33,405 nucleotides of DNA, taken from Chromatiales bacterium (GTDB taxonomy: Bacteria > Pseudomonadota > Gammaproteobacteria > Thiohalospirales > Thiohalospiraceae). Below, in pieces: positions 22,677 through 28,810 of this stretch; positions within the stretch are counted from its first letter, which is position 1, and each line of letters opens with the position of its first letter. The position numbers and the translations under genes are program-made. The DNA is taken from assembly GCA_026982395.1 (NCBI GenBank), contig JALSHD010000013.1, positions 1-33,405 of the forward strand. Direction: 5' to 3'. The notes below the pieces were generated by a model that saw nothing but the letters and a program-made list of their open reading frames with translations, was not told where the DNA came from and did not search any database.

Positions 22677-23357
22677 CTATATTTTCATGACGGCACTTGT
22701 TGTTTTCGCGCTGTTAATCCAGCTGCTGACGACGTTGAGCTCAGGAACCTCCTTGACGCGATGCTCCCGCTCATTGACATCTTTCAGCTTTTCCAGCAGC
22801 TGACCTGGCTCCCGACCCGCCAAGTCCTGAACTGACTCCACACCGGAAAATTCCAGCAGCTCTGCAAACTGTCCCATTATTCCGGGAATACGCATCAAGT
22901 CCGCCATACTTGCCCATTTTCTGACAACATAGCGCTCTTTTAGACCAATTTTATCCGCAACCCCTTCCCAGCCATCCCTGGTGCTGCAGCGTTGCAGCAA
23001 ATCTTCGGTAGTTTCAATCCCCAAAGCCCGCAGTTTTTTACCAAAACCCTTGCCAATACCCTCAACCTCTTCAACAGGATAGGGGTAATCATCACTATCC
23101 AGTCCTTCCTGATACTCATGCGTAGTAACCTGACTTGCGCCTTTGGCTACCAGTAACGTTTCGTACTTTGTCTTCCAGTCATCATTTTCACCCCGCAGCT
23201 GTGTATAATCACGCTTCAAGCGCGCATATCGGTCAGCCCAGTCCGTATCATCAGCAGATTCGGCACGCCTGGAACGGCAAAACAGGCAACCGATAATAAA
23301 TCCAAGTACAAACGCAATTAGCAAACACAGCACTATTTGTCCGATTAAATAAACCAT
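22677..23357 (-). CDS. Membrane-anchored DUF4332 helix-hairpin-helix protein
   Basis: This 226-residue protein begins with a transmembrane segment (VYLIGQIVLCLLIAFVLGFI, about 2-27), then a charged, partly coiled-coil stretch (33-70). The C-terminal domain (about 93-215) has helix-hairpin-helix-like motifs: VEEVEGIGKGFGKKLRALGI and LMRIPGIMGQFAELLEFSGV. This is the pattern of DUF4332 proteins. Such repeats often bind DNA non-specifically, but no role is established here. Its start lies 2 bp after the stop of the BON/OmpA gene, so they form one operon. The domain assignment is fairly secure; the function is unknown. Confidence 0.85.
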   Translation of the reverse strand: MVYLIGQIVLCLLIAFVLGFIIGCLFCRSRRAESADDTDWADRYARLKRDYTQLRGENDDWKTKYETLLVAKGASQVTTHEYQEGLDSDDYPYPVEEVEGIGKGFGKKLRALGIETTEDLLQRCSTRDGWEGVADKIGLKERYVVRKWASMADLMRIPGIMGQFAELLEFSGVESVQDLAGREPGQLLEKLKDVNEREHRVKEVPELNVVSSWINSAKTTSAVMKI

Positions 23358-23359
23358 TG

Positions 23360-24424
23360 TTAACTCCCCTGAATATTGACATTGAATTCGATTCGGCGAT
23401 TTTTTGTGCGCCCGGCTTCAGTTTCATTGTCAGCAACGGGCCTCGATTCTCCATAACCAACAGCAAACAGTCGATTTTTTGAAATACCTTTATGTACCAG
23501 ATAATCAACCACGGATTCCGCGCGTGCCTGGCTCAGCTTCATGTTCACCTGTTCACTTCCACGCGCATCGGTATGTCCTTCGATCTCAATTTTCGCACTG
23601 GAGCACTCTGAAGCAACACGCGCAAGCTCATCCAGCAATGGATAACTTTCCGGTGTAATTTGCGCGCTGGCTGTCTCGAAATGAATCTTCCGTTCTACCA
23701 GCAACTTGTCAAACTGCTGTTGACAGCCGCTTGCAGCGGCGAGAGGCGCTGGAACCATAATTTCATATTTGGGCTTATACCCCCCTGAAGATAGAGAACC
23801 ACTAATGGCCTGTTCTATATCCATCCGCACATCAGCAGAATCCACAACCCCGGCCAGCCGGAGTTCATTATCAACCAAGGCCGCATTCATGCGCAGAAAC
23901 CGGTCAAGTTCAACTGCAATTCCCTCCGCGGCAGAACGCCAGCCCACAGGAGCACCGGAAACTATCTGCAGTCGATCCTGAACCTTGTCTGCGCCAACAT
24001 GCTGCCGGGCTATTTCAACCACAGATACCCGAGTCTCTTCATCAGGCACCATGCCGCTGATTACCACTCCACCGCTGTCTTTGCTGAAATTTATTTCGTA
24101 GGGTACAGACAAGGCAACGGGAGATGGAGCAGCGACAGAGGAGTTACTAACCGTAATACGATTGTCAACGGTACGTACGCCATAAACACCTCGAGCAATT
24201 TCCCCTGCCCTGTCCCGAAGGTCCGCAGCAGCCGCCTTACCCGTTAATATGACATCACGCCCATCAATGCCGACACTGGACCAATCAATACCCGCCGTTT
24301 TCAAGGCATCATCGGTGCGGGTAACAAGATCCTGTTCTATCGCTGGCGCATGCCGACCCAGACACAGCCAGGCAAGCAGTATCAGCGCAATAGCCCCAAA
24401 CAGAAGAATGAGTATTTTATTCAT
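23360..24424 (-). CDS. BON-domain / OmpA-family peptidoglycan-binding protein
   Basis: From ATG 24424 (GGAGAG upstream) the protein has 354 residues; the open frame runs 20 codons further up. An N-terminal membrane anchor (about 3-22) is followed by BON-like repeats (roughly 30-93, 107-157 and 162-225; the third is weaker). A C-terminal OmpA domain follows (245-352). IHFETASAQI, IEGHTDARGSE (D286), LSQARAESV (R301) and KNRRIEF show the peptidoglycan diaminopimelate-binding site is intact. BON domains are thought to contact membranes or lipids. The architecture resembles mycobacterial OmpATb (ArfA). It probably tethers the inner membrane to the cell wall. It is the first gene of a two-gene operon with the DUF4332 protein. 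Confidence 0.9.
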   Translation of the reverse strand: MNKILILLFGAIALILLAWLCLGRHAPAIEQDLVTRTDDALKTAGIDWSSVGIDGRDVILTGKAAAADLRDRAGEIARGVYGVRTVDNRITVSNSSVAAPSPVALSVPYEINFSKDSGGVVISGMVPDEETRVSVVEIARQHVGADKVQDRLQIVSGAPVGWRSAAEGIAVELDRFLRMNAALVDNELRLAGVVDSADVRMDIEQAISGSLSSGGYKPKYEIMVPAPLAAASGCQQQFDKLLVERKIHFETASAQITPESYPLLDELARVASECSSAKIEIEGHTDARGSEQVNMKLSQARAESVVDYLVHKGISKNRLFAVGYGESRPVADNETEAGRTKNRRIEFNVNIQGS

Positions 24425-25174
24425 ATCAACTCTCCGGTATATCCGGTTTGTTCTCACTAAATAACAATCAGTCAGGCAAACCACAGTGTTTTGAACTGAA
24501 AATCAATCGATAAACAGCTATGCACCAAGAAGCCCTGGACCCCAGAAAAACATCGACTTAAAGCAAATCATAACCAACAAAAACAGACAGAACCCGTGCA
24601 ACCGGCACCGGTTGACCTTGCAACACGGAGACAAAACGTCAACAACGTTCAAACACGGGGACTCATTGGTTCGTAATGGATATAGCGGGAAAGGCAGGAA
24701 AAAACAGTAAAGCGAAGCTGGTACACAAAGGCCGTAAGCCATCCTGCGAGGCCATCTTTCCATCGGTCTGTTTACCGTACTGGAAAAACCGGGTGTTGGG
24801 CTTTTTTCAAACCAAAACAGCTGATTCATTCCCTAATCCAACAATCTCCGAGGGCACTTTATAACACAAATCAGCCACATAAGCCAAAAGGATAGATGGC
24901 AATTTTTGATCCAAACGCCCCTGATAATTGGTAAACTTGCTGTCAGGACATCCGTTCCAACCCATCCGGGCTGAATTGAGGAGCCGCAGGAAGCATTCTC
25001 GATTAGTGTGATACCGAGGCTTTTTTGTACGGACATGGCACAGCGAAGCGCAATAGTATTCTATTGCGACGAGCCGCAACGCCACTGGCATAAAAACCGG
25101 AACCCCGTCATGAACGGTGATTGAGAACGCCCCCGGCACTGACATGTAATATGGTTTACAGGAGTCTGATTCAA
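24425..25174. other. Non-coding spacer between the BON/OmpA operon and lemA
   Basis: These 750 bp contain only unconvincing ORFs. Two small perfect hairpins are visible: CAACCGG/CCGGTTG with a 2-nt loop (24599-24614) and CGCAATAG/CTATTGCG with a 4-nt loop (25049-25068). Both divergent promoters should lie here but I cannot place them. Confidence 0.5.
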
Positions 25175-25726
25175 ATGCTTGAAGAGTATGCACCGATAAT
25201 ATTGTTCATCTGCCTGATAGCGGTTCTCTGGCTTGTCGGAACATATAACAACTTCATCAAGCGCCGCAATATGATCGAGGAGCAATGGAGTGGCATTGAT
25301 GTAGCCCTGAGACGGCGTTATAACCTGATTCCCAACCTGATTAAGGCCGTAAAGGGATATGGGAAACATGAATCAGAACTGCTGCAGAAAACCACAGAGC
25401 AGCGAACCAACGGGGATAATATTACGCAACGCGCAGCCAGCGAAAGTGAGATTTCCCGATCGCTGAATAATCTGCTGGCTGTTGCGGAACAGTATCCCGA
25501 TCTAAAAGCCAGCAATAACTTTCTTGCCCTGCAGAGCAGTCTTAATGAGATAGAAAAAGAGGTTCAGCAAGCCCGTCAAGGTTATAATGCGGCGGTGCGG
25601 AAATTCAACACACTGGTTGAATCTTTTCCCAGCAATATCATGGCAAAAATATTCAACTTCAAAACATTTAGTTATTTTACACTCGAACTGGCAACACAAC
25701 GCGAGTTCCCTGACGTCGATTTTTAA
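25175..25726 (+). CDS. LemA family protein
   Basis: This 183-residue protein has an N-terminal transmembrane segment (about 7-23). The conserved LemA core is EEQWSGIDVALRRRYNLIPN, then VKGYGKHES and ATQREFPD-like blocks, with a long coiled helical body (QSSLNEIEKEVQQARQGYNAAVRKFN). ATG 25175 has AGGAG 10 bases upstream; earlier in-frame starts lack this. LemA proteins are widespread and of uncertain role. Many are encoded beside TPM-domain proteins or HtpX, but here the next gene is a cytochrome c5, 30 bp downstream. Start of a probable two-gene unit. Confidence 0.9.
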   Translation: MLEEYAPIILFICLIAVLWLVGTYNNFIKRRNMIEEQWSGIDVALRRRYNLIPNLIKAVKGYGKHESELLQKTTEQRTNGDNITQRAASESEISRSLNNLLAVAEQYPDLKASNNFLALQSSLNEIEKEVQQARQGYNAAVRKFNTLVESFPSNIMAKIFNFKTFSYFTLELATQREFPDVDF

Positions 25727-25756
25727 CCAACCCTTGTTATAAAGGAGCTTAGATAG

Positions 25757-26272
25757 ATGGCAAACCAAAGTAAATTCCCCACATCGCTGATTGTAGGTGC
25801 AGCCGTAGTACTGGCTGCAACAGCTTACCTGGTGCTACCCACGCTGGGAGGGGGACCGGATGTAGATATGAGTGAAGCTGCTGTACAGGAGAGAATCAAG
25901 CCTATCGGCACTGTTGCAACAACAGCCCAACCGGCAAACACGACACCGGCCAAACCGGAACCCGGTAAAGTGGCTGAGCCTGCCGCACTCGCAGCGTCTG
26001 CAGCACCTGGAGCAACAGCGGCTTCCACCGCCCGCTCTGGAGAGGATATATTCAACTCTTTCTGTACAGCCTGCCACTCCACTGGCGCAGCGGGAGCGCC
26101 CAAAGTGGGTGACAAGGAAGCATGGGCACCCTTTATTGCTACAGGCATGGATACGATGCTGGAAATTGCCATTAAAGGAAAAAATGCAATGCCGCCCCGG
26201 GGTACCTGCGCAGACTGTTCCGACGACGAGCTGAAGAGTGCCATTGAGTATATGGTGTCCAAGAGCCAGTGA
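25757..26272 (+). CDS. Membrane-anchored cytochrome c5 family protein
   Basis: This 171-residue electron carrier has an N-terminal membrane anchor (LIVGAAVVLAATAYLVL, about 11-27) and an Ala/Pro-rich linker (about 45-92). A single-heme domain follows: CTACH (C103, C106, H107), the axial Met in AMPPRGTCADC (M145), and the extra cysteine pair C151/C154 typical of cytochrome c5. It is likely periplasmic, passing electrons between respiratory complexes. AAAGGAG lies 9 bases before the ATG. It follows lemA by 30 bp and an 11-bp hairpin follows it. The partner oxidase or dehydrogenase is unknown. Confidence 0.92.
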   Translation: MANQSKFPTSLIVGAAVVLAATAYLVLPTLGGGPDVDMSEAAVQERIKPIGTVATTAQPANTTPAKPEPGKVAEPAALAASAAPGATAASTARSGEDIFNSFCTACHSTGAAGAPKVGDKEAWAPFIATGMDTMLEIAIKGKNAMPPRGTCADCSDDELKSAIEYMVSKSQ

Positions 26273-26364: not shown

Positions 26365-26473
26365 CTAGGGCCAGCCCGCTCCGGGTATGGAGCCGTACTC
26401 CGGCAAAAACCCGTAAATTTCAGAAGGGTGTGGTTAGACGTTCAGCAAACATGCCACAGGGAGAAGAAAAGAA

Positions 26474-26550
26474 TGGGGTGGACGATGGGACTCGAACCCA
26501 CGACGACCGGAATCACAATCCGGGGCTCTACCAACTGAGCTACGCCCACC
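26474..26550 (-). tRNA. tRNA-His (anticodon GTG)
   Basis: The reverse strand gives a complete 77-nt cloverleaf. The acceptor strands GTGGGCG and CGTCCAC pair with one G·U. The extra G at position -1 typical of tRNA-His is present, the anticodon loop TTGTGAT reads GTG, the T-loop is GTTCGAGTC, and CCA is encoded. It is the last tRNA of the three-gene unit. Confidence 0.96.
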
Positions 26551-26587
26551 ATAGTGGAAAAATGCGCCCTGTTATCCGACAGCAATA

Positions 26588-26664
26588 TGGCACGCCCGGC
26601 AGGACTCGAACCTGCTACCCTCGGCTTAGAAGGCCGATGCTCTATCCAGATGAGCTACGGGCGC
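26588..26664 (-). tRNA. tRNA-Arg (anticodon TCT)
   Basis: A 77-nt cloverleaf on the minus strand: it starts GCGCCCGTAGCTCATCTGG, has the anticodon loop CTTCTAA (TCT, for AGA/AGG) and the T-arm GCAGGTTCGAGTCCTGC, and ends with encoded CCA. It is the middle gene of the tRNA cluster, 37 bp from tRNA-His. Confidence 0.96.
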
Positions 26665-26744
26665 ATAATTCTCAGGCCGCGGGATTCTATCACAAGCCTT
26701 TCCTTGACGTACCTGATACTCACACAAGCAAGTATACCAGTGTT

Positions 26745-26821
26745 TGGTCGGGGTAGAGAGATTCGAACTCCCGACATCCTGCTCCCAAAGCAGGCGCGCT
26801 ACCAGACTGCGCTATACCCCG
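26745..26821 (-). tRNA. tRNA-Pro (anticodon TGG)
   Basis: A 77-nt cloverleaf on the minus strand: it starts CGGGGTATAGCGCAGTCTGG, has the anticodon loop TTTGGGA (TGG), the T-loop TTCGAATC and encoded CCA. It is first in the cluster, about 34 nt after the predicted transcription start. Confidence 0.96.
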
Positions 26822-27148
26822 AATTGTGCTCTACTTCGCACGATTGCACGCAAGGCGACAAATAATACGCGGCGCAATGAATTACGTCAACCTACACCTT
26901 GTCCAATGCACATGAGCCGAACGGGGCGGATTATTTTCCTGCAGCAAGAACTATCGCAGTGGATAACATACGGCTCCTTTGTCATCAACCATTCCCAAAA
27001 AACCCCTTCCTTTGTCGGCTTATTAGTAATTTCTAAAGTTTTATAAGACGAGGCCGTTACAATTCAGACACAATTCACTTCAAGACCGAAGCGGGGTGAT
27101 AACAAGTGAGTTCTGCACACTTAAAAAGCATACAAAGGAAATATCACT
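26822..27148. other. Spacer between the tRNA cluster and the chemoreceptor gene
   Basis: The first 70 bp carry the tRNA promoter (listed separately). The rest holds no ORF I would support. The chemoreceptor Shine-Dalgarno AAAGGA lies about 9 bases before its ATG at 27149; its promoter is not obvious. Confidence 0.6.
26862..26890 (-). promoter_or_regulatory. Near-consensus promoter of the tRNA operon
   Basis: On the minus strand TTGACG (26885-26890), a 17-bp spacer and TATTAT (26862-26867) match the sigma-70 consensus at ten of twelve positions with ideal spacing. It predicts a start near 26855, just ahead of tRNA-Pro. Confidence 0.85.
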
Positions 27149-28810
27149 ATGAATGTTTTATTGACGCCAGCTATCCATCTGATGAACCGAATTCAGTTCC
27201 GAACCAAGTTTTTTCTGCTGTTTGTAGTCAGTGCGGCACCATTACTGATTTTTGGTTACGAACTCTTCAGCGCAAGCAACGCAGAAACAAGCAAGACAGT
27301 GGAGTATCTGAATATTGCTCTTCTGGTTGGCAGTCTGCTGTTGCTGTCTTATCTCTATCTCGCCATCTATGCAGCAATCTGCTCGACCATCAGGCAGCTT
27401 CGTGACGTCAGTAAAAACATGGCCGAAGGTGACATGAGCAGGCGCCTGGCACTGGAGAGCCATGACGAGATGTCGGAGATCGCCTCATCTATTAATCATA
27501 TTTCCGATGGTGTCGGACAAGCGATCACCTCAGTACTCACCACCGTTGGTGTATTGGCTGACACATCTGACAAGCTGGCGGCTCTCAACAAGAAATCGGG
27601 CGAGAATGTCTCCATCCAGGCCGACAGCATTGAACAGGCTGCTGCGGCAATGACTGAAATGACTGCTACGGTACAAGAGGTCGCACGCAACTCATCTCAC
27701 GCAGCCGATGCGGCAAGGCAGGCGGATAACTCAATTCTTAACGGACAAAAGGTTGTAGAAGAGGCCGTCGGTTCCATCAACGCTCTGGCCGGGGATGTAC
27801 AACAGGCAGTCGACGCAATCGGGCGGCTGGAAAGCCACAGCAGCAACATCAATGGCATTCTGGACATTATTCGCGATATTGCCGAACAGACCAATCTGCT
27901 AGCGCTGAATGCGGCTATTGAGGCGGCACGAGCCGGGGAGCAGGGACGCGGTTTTGCGGTGGTGGCAGATGAGGTGCGCTCCCTGGCCAGGCGTACCCAG
28001 GAGTCGACCCTTGAGATCCAGAATATGATTGAGGATTTGCAAAGGGATACCCGCGAAACCGCCCAGGTTATGCTTTCCAGTGGAGAGCGGGCCAAACAGA
28101 GCGTGGAACAGGCCAACGGAACCTGTTCGGTACTTGACGAAATTGCCGGAGCCATCACCTCCATTACAGAAATGAATGAGTTGATCGCAACGGCAGTTGA
28201 ACAACAAAGTGTCGTGGCCGAGGATATAAATAGCAATATCAACCGCATCTCTCAGGCAGTGGACGAGATAAACCATGATGCCCAGCATGCTGGCTCCGAA
28301 AGCGGTCGGGTTGCCGCCATGGCCGCAGAGGTACGTATGCTGCTGGATCGCTTCCAGATTAATCATAAAGCCATACAGGACAGAAAATCCGCACAGGACA
28401 GTAACCTGCTGTTTCGTTGGGATGAATCATTCATGGTCGGTATTGCCGAAATCGATCGTCAGCACAAACTGCTGGTCGATATCGTGAACGAACTCTACTA
28501 TGAAGCAGGCAATAACTGCAGTCACGAGATGCTGGGGCGAATCCTGAACGGACTGGTGGAATACACCAAAACCCACTTTGCCTATGAAGAGGGCCTGCTG
28601 GCAATGCACGGCTATCCCGATCTGGGCCCACACCAGCTCAAACACAAAAAACTGGTCGCCCGCGTAATGGAGTTCCAGGGCCGGGTTACCGCCAATGACG
28701 AGAGTGTACTTGAAGAGCTGTTACAGTTTCTGAAGAACTGGCTGGCCAACCATATCCAGGGTACCGACAAGAAATATGTCCCCTTCCTGAAAGAAAAAGG
28801 GGTCAGATAA
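27149..28810 (+). CDS. Methyl-accepting chemotaxis protein with C-terminal hemerythrin domain
   Basis: This 553-residue receptor has two transmembrane segments (about 20-38 and 53-77) separated by only about 14 residues, so there is no periplasmic sensor domain. A HAMP region follows (about 78-130), then the signalling domain with the conserved tip [20 protein letters not shown] (about 246-265) and [16 protein letters not shown]. The C-terminus (about 422-550) is a bacteriohemerythrin with all seven diiron ligands in normal spacing: H439, H476, E480, H495, H499, H535, D540. This predicts intracellular sensing of O2, or possibly NO or redox state, to steer movement. No che genes are nearby. 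It has its own spacer upstream and is followed by DUF4389 after 103 bp. Confidence 0.95.

Follow-up and report, generated by a model that had tools for sequence, protein, structure and literature searches.

The window analysed here is a stretch of 33,405 nucleotides from a Chromatiales bacterium (assembly GCA_026982395.1, contig JALSHD010000013.1, positions 1 to 33,405). On its minus strand lie two genes with intact frames and 2 bp between them, which encode a protein with BON units and an OmpA-like domain (named gene 1) and a membrane-bound DUF4332 protein (named gene 2) (Table 1). The start of gene 1 was taken as the ATG at 24424; an alternative GTG at 24484 would lengthen the frame. Scans for promoters and terminators gave no signal above shuffled sequences. 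The genome (2.72 Mb in 193 contigs) holds the pair in one copy, besides eight further OmpA-type matches and one soluble DUF4332 gene, and the nearest named relatives carrying the pair are Gammaproteobacteria MAGs.

Table 1. Positions in the window of the two genes, their domains and their ribosome-binding sites.
Feature	Position	Strand	Basis
Gene 1, putative signal anchor, three BON-type units and OmpA-like peptidoglycan-binding domain, 354 aa	23360..24424	(-)	intact frame, Pfam, model
Shine-Dalgarno-like GGAGAG of gene 1, 5' of ATG 24424	24430..24435	(-)	
Gene 1 membrane helix, residues 4-22; C21 preceded by L, no lipobox	24359..24415	(-)	
BON unit 1, residues 29-93	24146..24340	(-)	Pfam and model
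BON-type unit 2, residues 108-156	23957..24103	(-)	Pfam (two BON stretches) and model
BON-type unit 3, residues 160-226	23747..23947	(-)	secondary structure of model
OmpA-like domain with D286 and R301, residues 241-350	23375..23704	(-)	Pfam, alignment, structure matches
Shine-Dalgarno-like AGGGGAG of gene 2, within the last codons of gene 1, just 5' of the gene 2 ATG	23364..23370	(-)	
Gene 2, predicted reverse-anchored membrane helix, coiled coil and DUF4332, 226 aa	22677..23357	(-)	intact frame, Pfam, model
Gene 2 membrane helix, residues 1-27 (MVYLIGQIVLCLLIAFVLGFIIGCLFC), family motif MxYLxxQ...AxxxGxxxG	23277..23357	(-)	
Gene 2 stalk, residues 28-73, continuous helix in model (46 residues)	23139..23276	(-)	
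DUF4332 domain, residues 92-222; two probable HhH-type helical units, ~92-155 and ~148-223	22692..23084	(-)	Pfam, model, structure alignment

Domain organization of the BON-OmpA protein

Pfam searches assigned two stretches of gene 1 to BON (PF04972; 61 bits against a cut-off of 27, E 1.3e-16) and its C-terminal part to OmpA (PF00691; 92.9 bits against 27.2, E 1.6e-26). The two residues expected to grip peptidoglycan, D286 and R301, are present and near-invariant in an alignment of 18 relatives, in agreement with the sequence-only reading, which had described BON domains joined to an OmpA domain with both residues intact. The equivalent residues of A. baumannii OmpA, D271 and R286, are described as binding diaminopimelate in PMC6572160. 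Against the named NCBIfam OmpA equivalogs (YiaD, PA1041 anchor, Pal, PdsO and YfiB), gene 1 scored under every cut-off, for example 130.8 against 175 for YiaD and 82.5 against 152.2 for PdsO. The AlphaFold2 model (mean pLDDT 91.1) contains a helix at residues 2-43, alpha/beta units at ~49-92, ~110-154 and ~162-223, which may all be read as BON units, and then the OmpA domain; the pTM of 0.42 leaves the relative placement of these domains open.

A lipoprotein reading of gene 1 was rejected: C21 follows L, and a lipobox (G, A or S before the cysteine) is absent. Wherever the cysteine occurs among the 18 aligned relatives, it is preceded by L, F, Y or I. Lysine and arginine counts around the helix (1.65 before and 1.37 after) do not by themselves fix its orientation. 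Since there is no lipobox and the OmpA domain must be periplasmic to reach peptidoglycan, we infer that the N-terminal helix is an uncleaved signal anchor in the inner membrane.

Fold of the DUF4332 domain in gene 2

Pfam also assigned DUF4332 to gene 2 (PF14229; 110.7 bits against a cut-off of 23.2, E 6.8e-32, residues 100-219). In the model (pLDDT 90.4, with 96-98 in most blocks of DUF4332), a helix spanning residues 2-73, made up of the single membrane helix and a charged stalk, is followed by an all-helical domain. Structure alignment with VIA-align matched the second half of the domain to DNA polymerase theta (9bh6; Z 10.2, 68 aligned residues, 2.3 A), NusA AR2 (6ib8; Z 8.9, 63 aligned, 2.1 A) and RadA N-domains (3ntu; Z 8.9, 59 aligned, 2.2 A), and the first half to a chain of human BCDX2 (8faz; Z 6.7, 58 aligned, 1.3 A) and the thumbs of Y-family polymerases (Z 6.4-6.9), with the caveat that Z values of 7-10 between helical domains can reflect a common arrangement. 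A Foldseek search with the model returned nothing below E 0.001, and a gene 2 profile run against the sequences of solved structures gave weak HhH matches (the best being DNA polymerase IV, 7yll, E 2e-4) along with chance matches to coiled coils. From the alignments of both halves, the domain is best read as two HhH-type units, a statement about fold and not function. The model thus bears out the earlier view of DUF4332 as an HhH-type fold placed on a membrane anchor.

Recurrence of the pairing

Whether the two genes form a recurring module had been left open in the sequence-only reading. In 369 gammaproteobacterial genomes, where each partner was searched separately, a BON-OmpA gene lies directly upstream of 14 of the 16 membrane-anchored DUF4332 genes; one of these 14 places is known from the OmpA end at a contig edge, and the two unpaired proteins (G055 and G195) come from one family. 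A contig scan with 80 kept loci found the full-length membrane form next to an upstream BON-OmpA gene in 12 of 12 cases, including MAGs of Leucothrix mucor, Thiomicrorhabdus and Campylobacterales. After pooling and collapsing by identical ends, a same-strand BON gene was present within 400 bp of 28 of the 31 membrane DUF4332 forms, or 29 of 31 once the contig-edge case is added, as against 1 of 81 soluble forms. That sole BON-adjacent soluble gene, in a Geminicoccaceae MAG, adjoins a distinct minimal unit of this kind, in which a 99 aa BON protein is paired with a protein made of membrane helix, coiled coil and HhH. The pairing therefore recurs and is not a chance juxtaposition; the alternative that the genes are rarely adjacent elsewhere is clearly contradicted.

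By a hand tally, 29 or more of the 369 genomes carry a unit, and these span 15 families. Of 56 pairs, 54 have a gap of -4 to +40 bp between the two genes, and this spacing, the recurrent adjacency and the coupled ribosome-binding site support the view that the frames lying 2 bp apart form a unit. Counting all distinct proteins with the membrane helix, 56 of 65 have a BON neighbour, a ratio biased by the many loci fetched via their BON side, so that 14/16 and 12/12 are the fair figures. Closer to the source organism, among 144 genomes (the own genome and relatives), a membrane-anchored DUF4332 occurs in seven genomes of the genus, which is represented by eight, and in seven from other families, and the preceding gene encodes BON-OmpA in all but G055. 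The eighth genome of the genus (G001) carries a 64-residue fragment of gene 2 (C79:3423-3614) beside a soluble copy, and the contig of the fragment showed no recognisable BON gene.

From the class survey, the weak profile rows G340 and G254, RmuC-like by eye, were excluded from the counts, and about ten further weak rows, all with E above 1e-6 (e.g. G066:C62, G205:C74, G376:C8, G082:C30, G173:C8 and G126:C122), were left aside. The threshold of the helix profile missed at least two paired loci that are visible by eye (L229 and L230). Among the matches listed for 150 genomes of the class to which the Campylobacterales MAG belongs, those in G377 and G426 are the only ones to cover the BON-OmpA profile over its full length. 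For 190 genomes of the class that includes the Geminicoccaceae MAG, the HhH tail of other proteins accounts for most matches, and among the matches listed only those in G378, G713 and G593 reach the membrane helix.

A constant membrane helix with an exchangeable tip

The first 34 residues of gene 2 align without gaps in 37 examples and follow the approximate pattern M-x-Y-L-x-x-[QE]...A-x3-G-x3-G-W, after which come basic residues. Behind this helix, the C-terminal end is variable: in 56 BON-adjacent helix proteins it is DUF4332 in 24, another HhH type in 21 and neither in 11, four short loci (L150, L152, L155 and L163) that were at first scored as having none having been re-read for their tips in longer stretches (L040, L177, L184 and L195). 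With scores under the family cut-offs, the second HhH type matches tails that NuoE, L21, S2 and PhaH carry in Alphaproteobacteria; it is not a domain of this window, and its alphaproteobacterial hosts are other proteins. The 11 units with neither tip comprise five proteins of 32-59 residues, one of them cut by a contig end, and six that are mostly coiled coil or acidic. Partner proteins range from 32 to 1026 aa; that of the Leucothrix MAG has 917 aa and tandem copies of DUF4332. Some units have no OmpA domain and others no HhH tip, and two membrane HhH proteins (G348 and G253) have no BON neighbour.

At four loci (L172, L173, L192 and L188), an ORF of 32-58 codons, barely more than the membrane helix of gene 2, directly follows the BON-OmpA gene; at the first three, another protein that begins with a hydrophobic helix comes after the small ORF. 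Two BON-less helix-coiled coil proteins with the same helix motif (L218: 2723-3506 and L223: 3820-4621) adjoin a gene for a small polymer-forming protein, which matches bactofilin in L218 (PF04519, E 3e-24) and is similar by eye in L223.

Topology and contact between the two proteins

The partner proteins carry on average 0.12 lysine or arginine in residues 1-18 as against 3.0 in the 12 residues after the helix, and every one of the 51 proteins shows this sense. Under the positive-inside rule, the basic residues after the helix place the HhH end in the cytoplasm. The DUF4332/HhH end of gene 2 is thus predicted to be cytoplasmic and the short N-terminus to lie outside. This predicted topology, with wall binding outside and HhH inside, fits the link from the envelope to the nucleoid or to an RNA/DNA complex that had been put forward from the sequence alone. 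We consider it very improbable that the topology is the opposite one, in which DUF4332 would be periplasmic and would catch incoming DNA beside the wall. ComEA, a membrane-anchored HhH protein, offers a precedent for such a DNA receptor, but the charge pattern, with positive residues after and not before the helix throughout, argues for the cytoplasmic placement, and no competence genes were recognised in the neighbourhoods read by eye.

Cysteines were examined as a possible sign of contact between the two membrane helices. At the tips of the tree, C11 of gene 2 and C21 of gene 1 co-occur strongly (counts 20/1/2/28, Fisher p 6e-11, the first position windows having been chosen after the data were seen); the counts were 11/1/2/22 by 36 clusters and 21/6/1/22 under a relaxed rule. 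Parsimony on the BON tree placed joint changes of the two cysteines on no branch (0 of 7 and 8 changes), so shared ancestry explains the co-occurrence and the C11-C21 pairing was dropped as evidence of contact.

The missing joint changes fit an alternative in which the two proteins come from one transcript but form no complex, gene 1 being an ordinary BON-OmpA protein of envelope stability and gene 2 acting independently. The nine of 65 distinct membrane-helix proteins that stand without a BON neighbour agree with this, as does the occurrence of the BON-OmpA architecture in Rv0899, for which we know of no gene 2-like partner. Such independence nevertheless seems improbable to us in view of a helix motif that stays gapless and constant while everything behind it varies, an adjacency kept across 15 families and far divergence, and units that retain a protein of 32-58 residues, little else than the helix, still beside BON-OmpA.

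Candidate ligands of the tip

Soluble DUF4332 proteins share the domain (mostly 35-47% identity over ~130 residues) but differ from gene 2 in having neither membrane helix nor stalk, and also in their neighbours. In the class survey, 16 of 39 soluble genes have a gene for a HerA_C-type ATPase no more than 1.5 kb away, usually divergent, with three more within 2.6 kb, the HerA_C identity (PF05872) having been tested on three neighbour proteins (E 5e-226 or better); a BON gene within 500 bp was found at 0 of 39 class loci. The loci surveyed were L054, the class loci L285-L320, L053 and L056. The soluble gene of the own genome and its HerA_C-type ATPase neighbour (G000:C35; L054: 6398-6808 and 7211-8647) are likewise divergent. 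The soluble DUF4332 protein and the ATPase may be a functional pair in their own right. As for the membrane units, a HerA_C ATPase stands beside three of one family (G077, G208 and G311) and within 500 bp in 2 of the 42 unit loci that span at least 6 kb.

The net charge of DUF4332 is -2 in this copy and has a median of -4 in membrane forms. The GxG of the first hairpin is absent from 7 of 30 membrane DUF4332 domains as against 5 of 104 soluble ones; the GIG hairpin is present in gene 2 here. These features are consistent with a tip that serves as a protein-binding adaptor, so that what the bridge tethers to a membrane site anchored on the wall would be a protein complex, be it a ribosome, ATPase, cytoskeleton or enzyme. 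NusA AR2, which the second half of the domain resembles, was solved in complex with the protein SuhB, and HhH-type folds bind proteins too; the known hosts of the alternative HhH tail include a subunit of complex I, two ribosomal proteins and a phasin; and the two stand-alone relatives with the same helix adjoin a bactofilin-type gene. On the other side, DUF4332 and its substitute are both HhH folds and the GIG hairpin is largely retained, and the HerA-type neighbours suggest nucleic acid, although the ATPase might just as well be the protein partner. We regard the protein adaptor as a serious but tentative possibility. With the HhH fold, the HhH swap and the HerA-type neighbours weighed against the acidity and the hairpin loss, the evidence for nucleic-acid binding is mixed, and nucleic acid and protein stand nearly level as partners of the tip.

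A proposed bridge through the inner membrane

We propose that the two proteins form a bridge through the inner membrane, gripping the wall outside and ending in an HhH tip in the cytoplasm, a reading that we hold to be evenly poised between right and wrong. Gene 1 would be held in the inner membrane by its uncleaved N-terminal helix, its three BON units would make a periplasmic arm, and its OmpA domain would grip peptidoglycan. Gene 2 would enter the same membrane in the opposite sense, with its short N-terminus out and its C-terminus in, and its conserved small-residue helix may pack against the helix of gene 1. The coiled-coil stalk would then hold the HhH tip in the cytoplasm (DUF4332 here, the NuoE/L21-type HhH elsewhere), where it most likely captures a nucleic acid or a nucleic-acid-handling machine and so fixes it to a wall-anchored membrane site. 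The gene order, the domains, the predicted topology and the exchangeable tip of the pair come directly from the computation; that the proteins of gene 1 and gene 2 bind each other, and what the tip captures, we infer. More speculative, and in our view rather doubtful, is a bacterial counterpart of the LINC complex: the two proteins would span the inner membrane and tie the peptidoglycan wall to the nucleoid or else to a HerA-family DNA-handling ATPase, with the stalk length (from some 40 to over 900 residues) and the HhH tip exchanged between lineages.

Parts of this arrangement resemble known systems. OmpATb/ArfA of Mycobacterium tuberculosis (Rv0899) likewise combines a membrane helix, a BON region and an OmpA domain, in this order, in one chain, and is the best match of gene 1 among solved structures (phmmer E 3e-21 for the OmpA part, Foldseek E 3.9e-13). 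The partners of arfA are arfB and arfC; the next gene here encodes a predicted reverse-anchored HhH (DUF4332) protein. The anchors of MotB/PomB and Pal type share with gene 1 an OmpA-like peptidoglycan grip on a membrane-held protein; gene 1 differs in having no ion-channel partner, no lipobox and BON units in between. BON domains also occur in the envelope in DolP, described as a dual-BON lipoprotein in PMC7806268, and in other BON proteins, but the anchor of gene 1 is a helix without a lipobox and its OmpA domain follows the BON units. The known NuoE/L21/S2/PhaH tail, in turn, takes the place of DUF4332 as the tip of 21 of the 56 units. The predicted cytoplasmic position of the HhH, with its consistent charge pattern, separates gene 2 from a periplasmic receptor like ComEA. 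A wall-bound inner-membrane anchor is thus a known kind of protein, and the predicted cytoplasmic HhH partner is what is new.

The searches of the PMC literature turned up no description of the pair itself. DUF4332, which we found named in one paper there, as the label of a neighbour, gains a genomic context and a probable fold. Physical links between wall and nucleoid are often invoked, and to our knowledge few candidate proteins have been put forward. The pair described here is widespread and easily recognised, and it sets predicted wall binding and a fold of DNA-repair type on opposite sides of the inner membrane; if the two proteins form a defined complex, the idea of a wall-nucleoid link becomes testable.

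Genes around the unit

LemA and cytochrome c genes (25151-26272; L049-L052) are divergent from the unit, and several members of the genus retain them. Three minus-strand tRNA genes (His, Arg and Pro) follow at 26474-26821, and the overlapping ORFs at 26430-27046 are likely spurious. YidB-like genes adjoin both membrane units (L044: 9437-9943, and L167) and soluble DUF4332 genes (L053, L313 and L314), the family (PF20159) being assigned for L044 and L053. At 27149-28810 the window encodes a chemoreceptor, plausibly an oxygen sensor, that combines HAMP and MCP signalling domains with a hemerythrin domain at its C-terminus.
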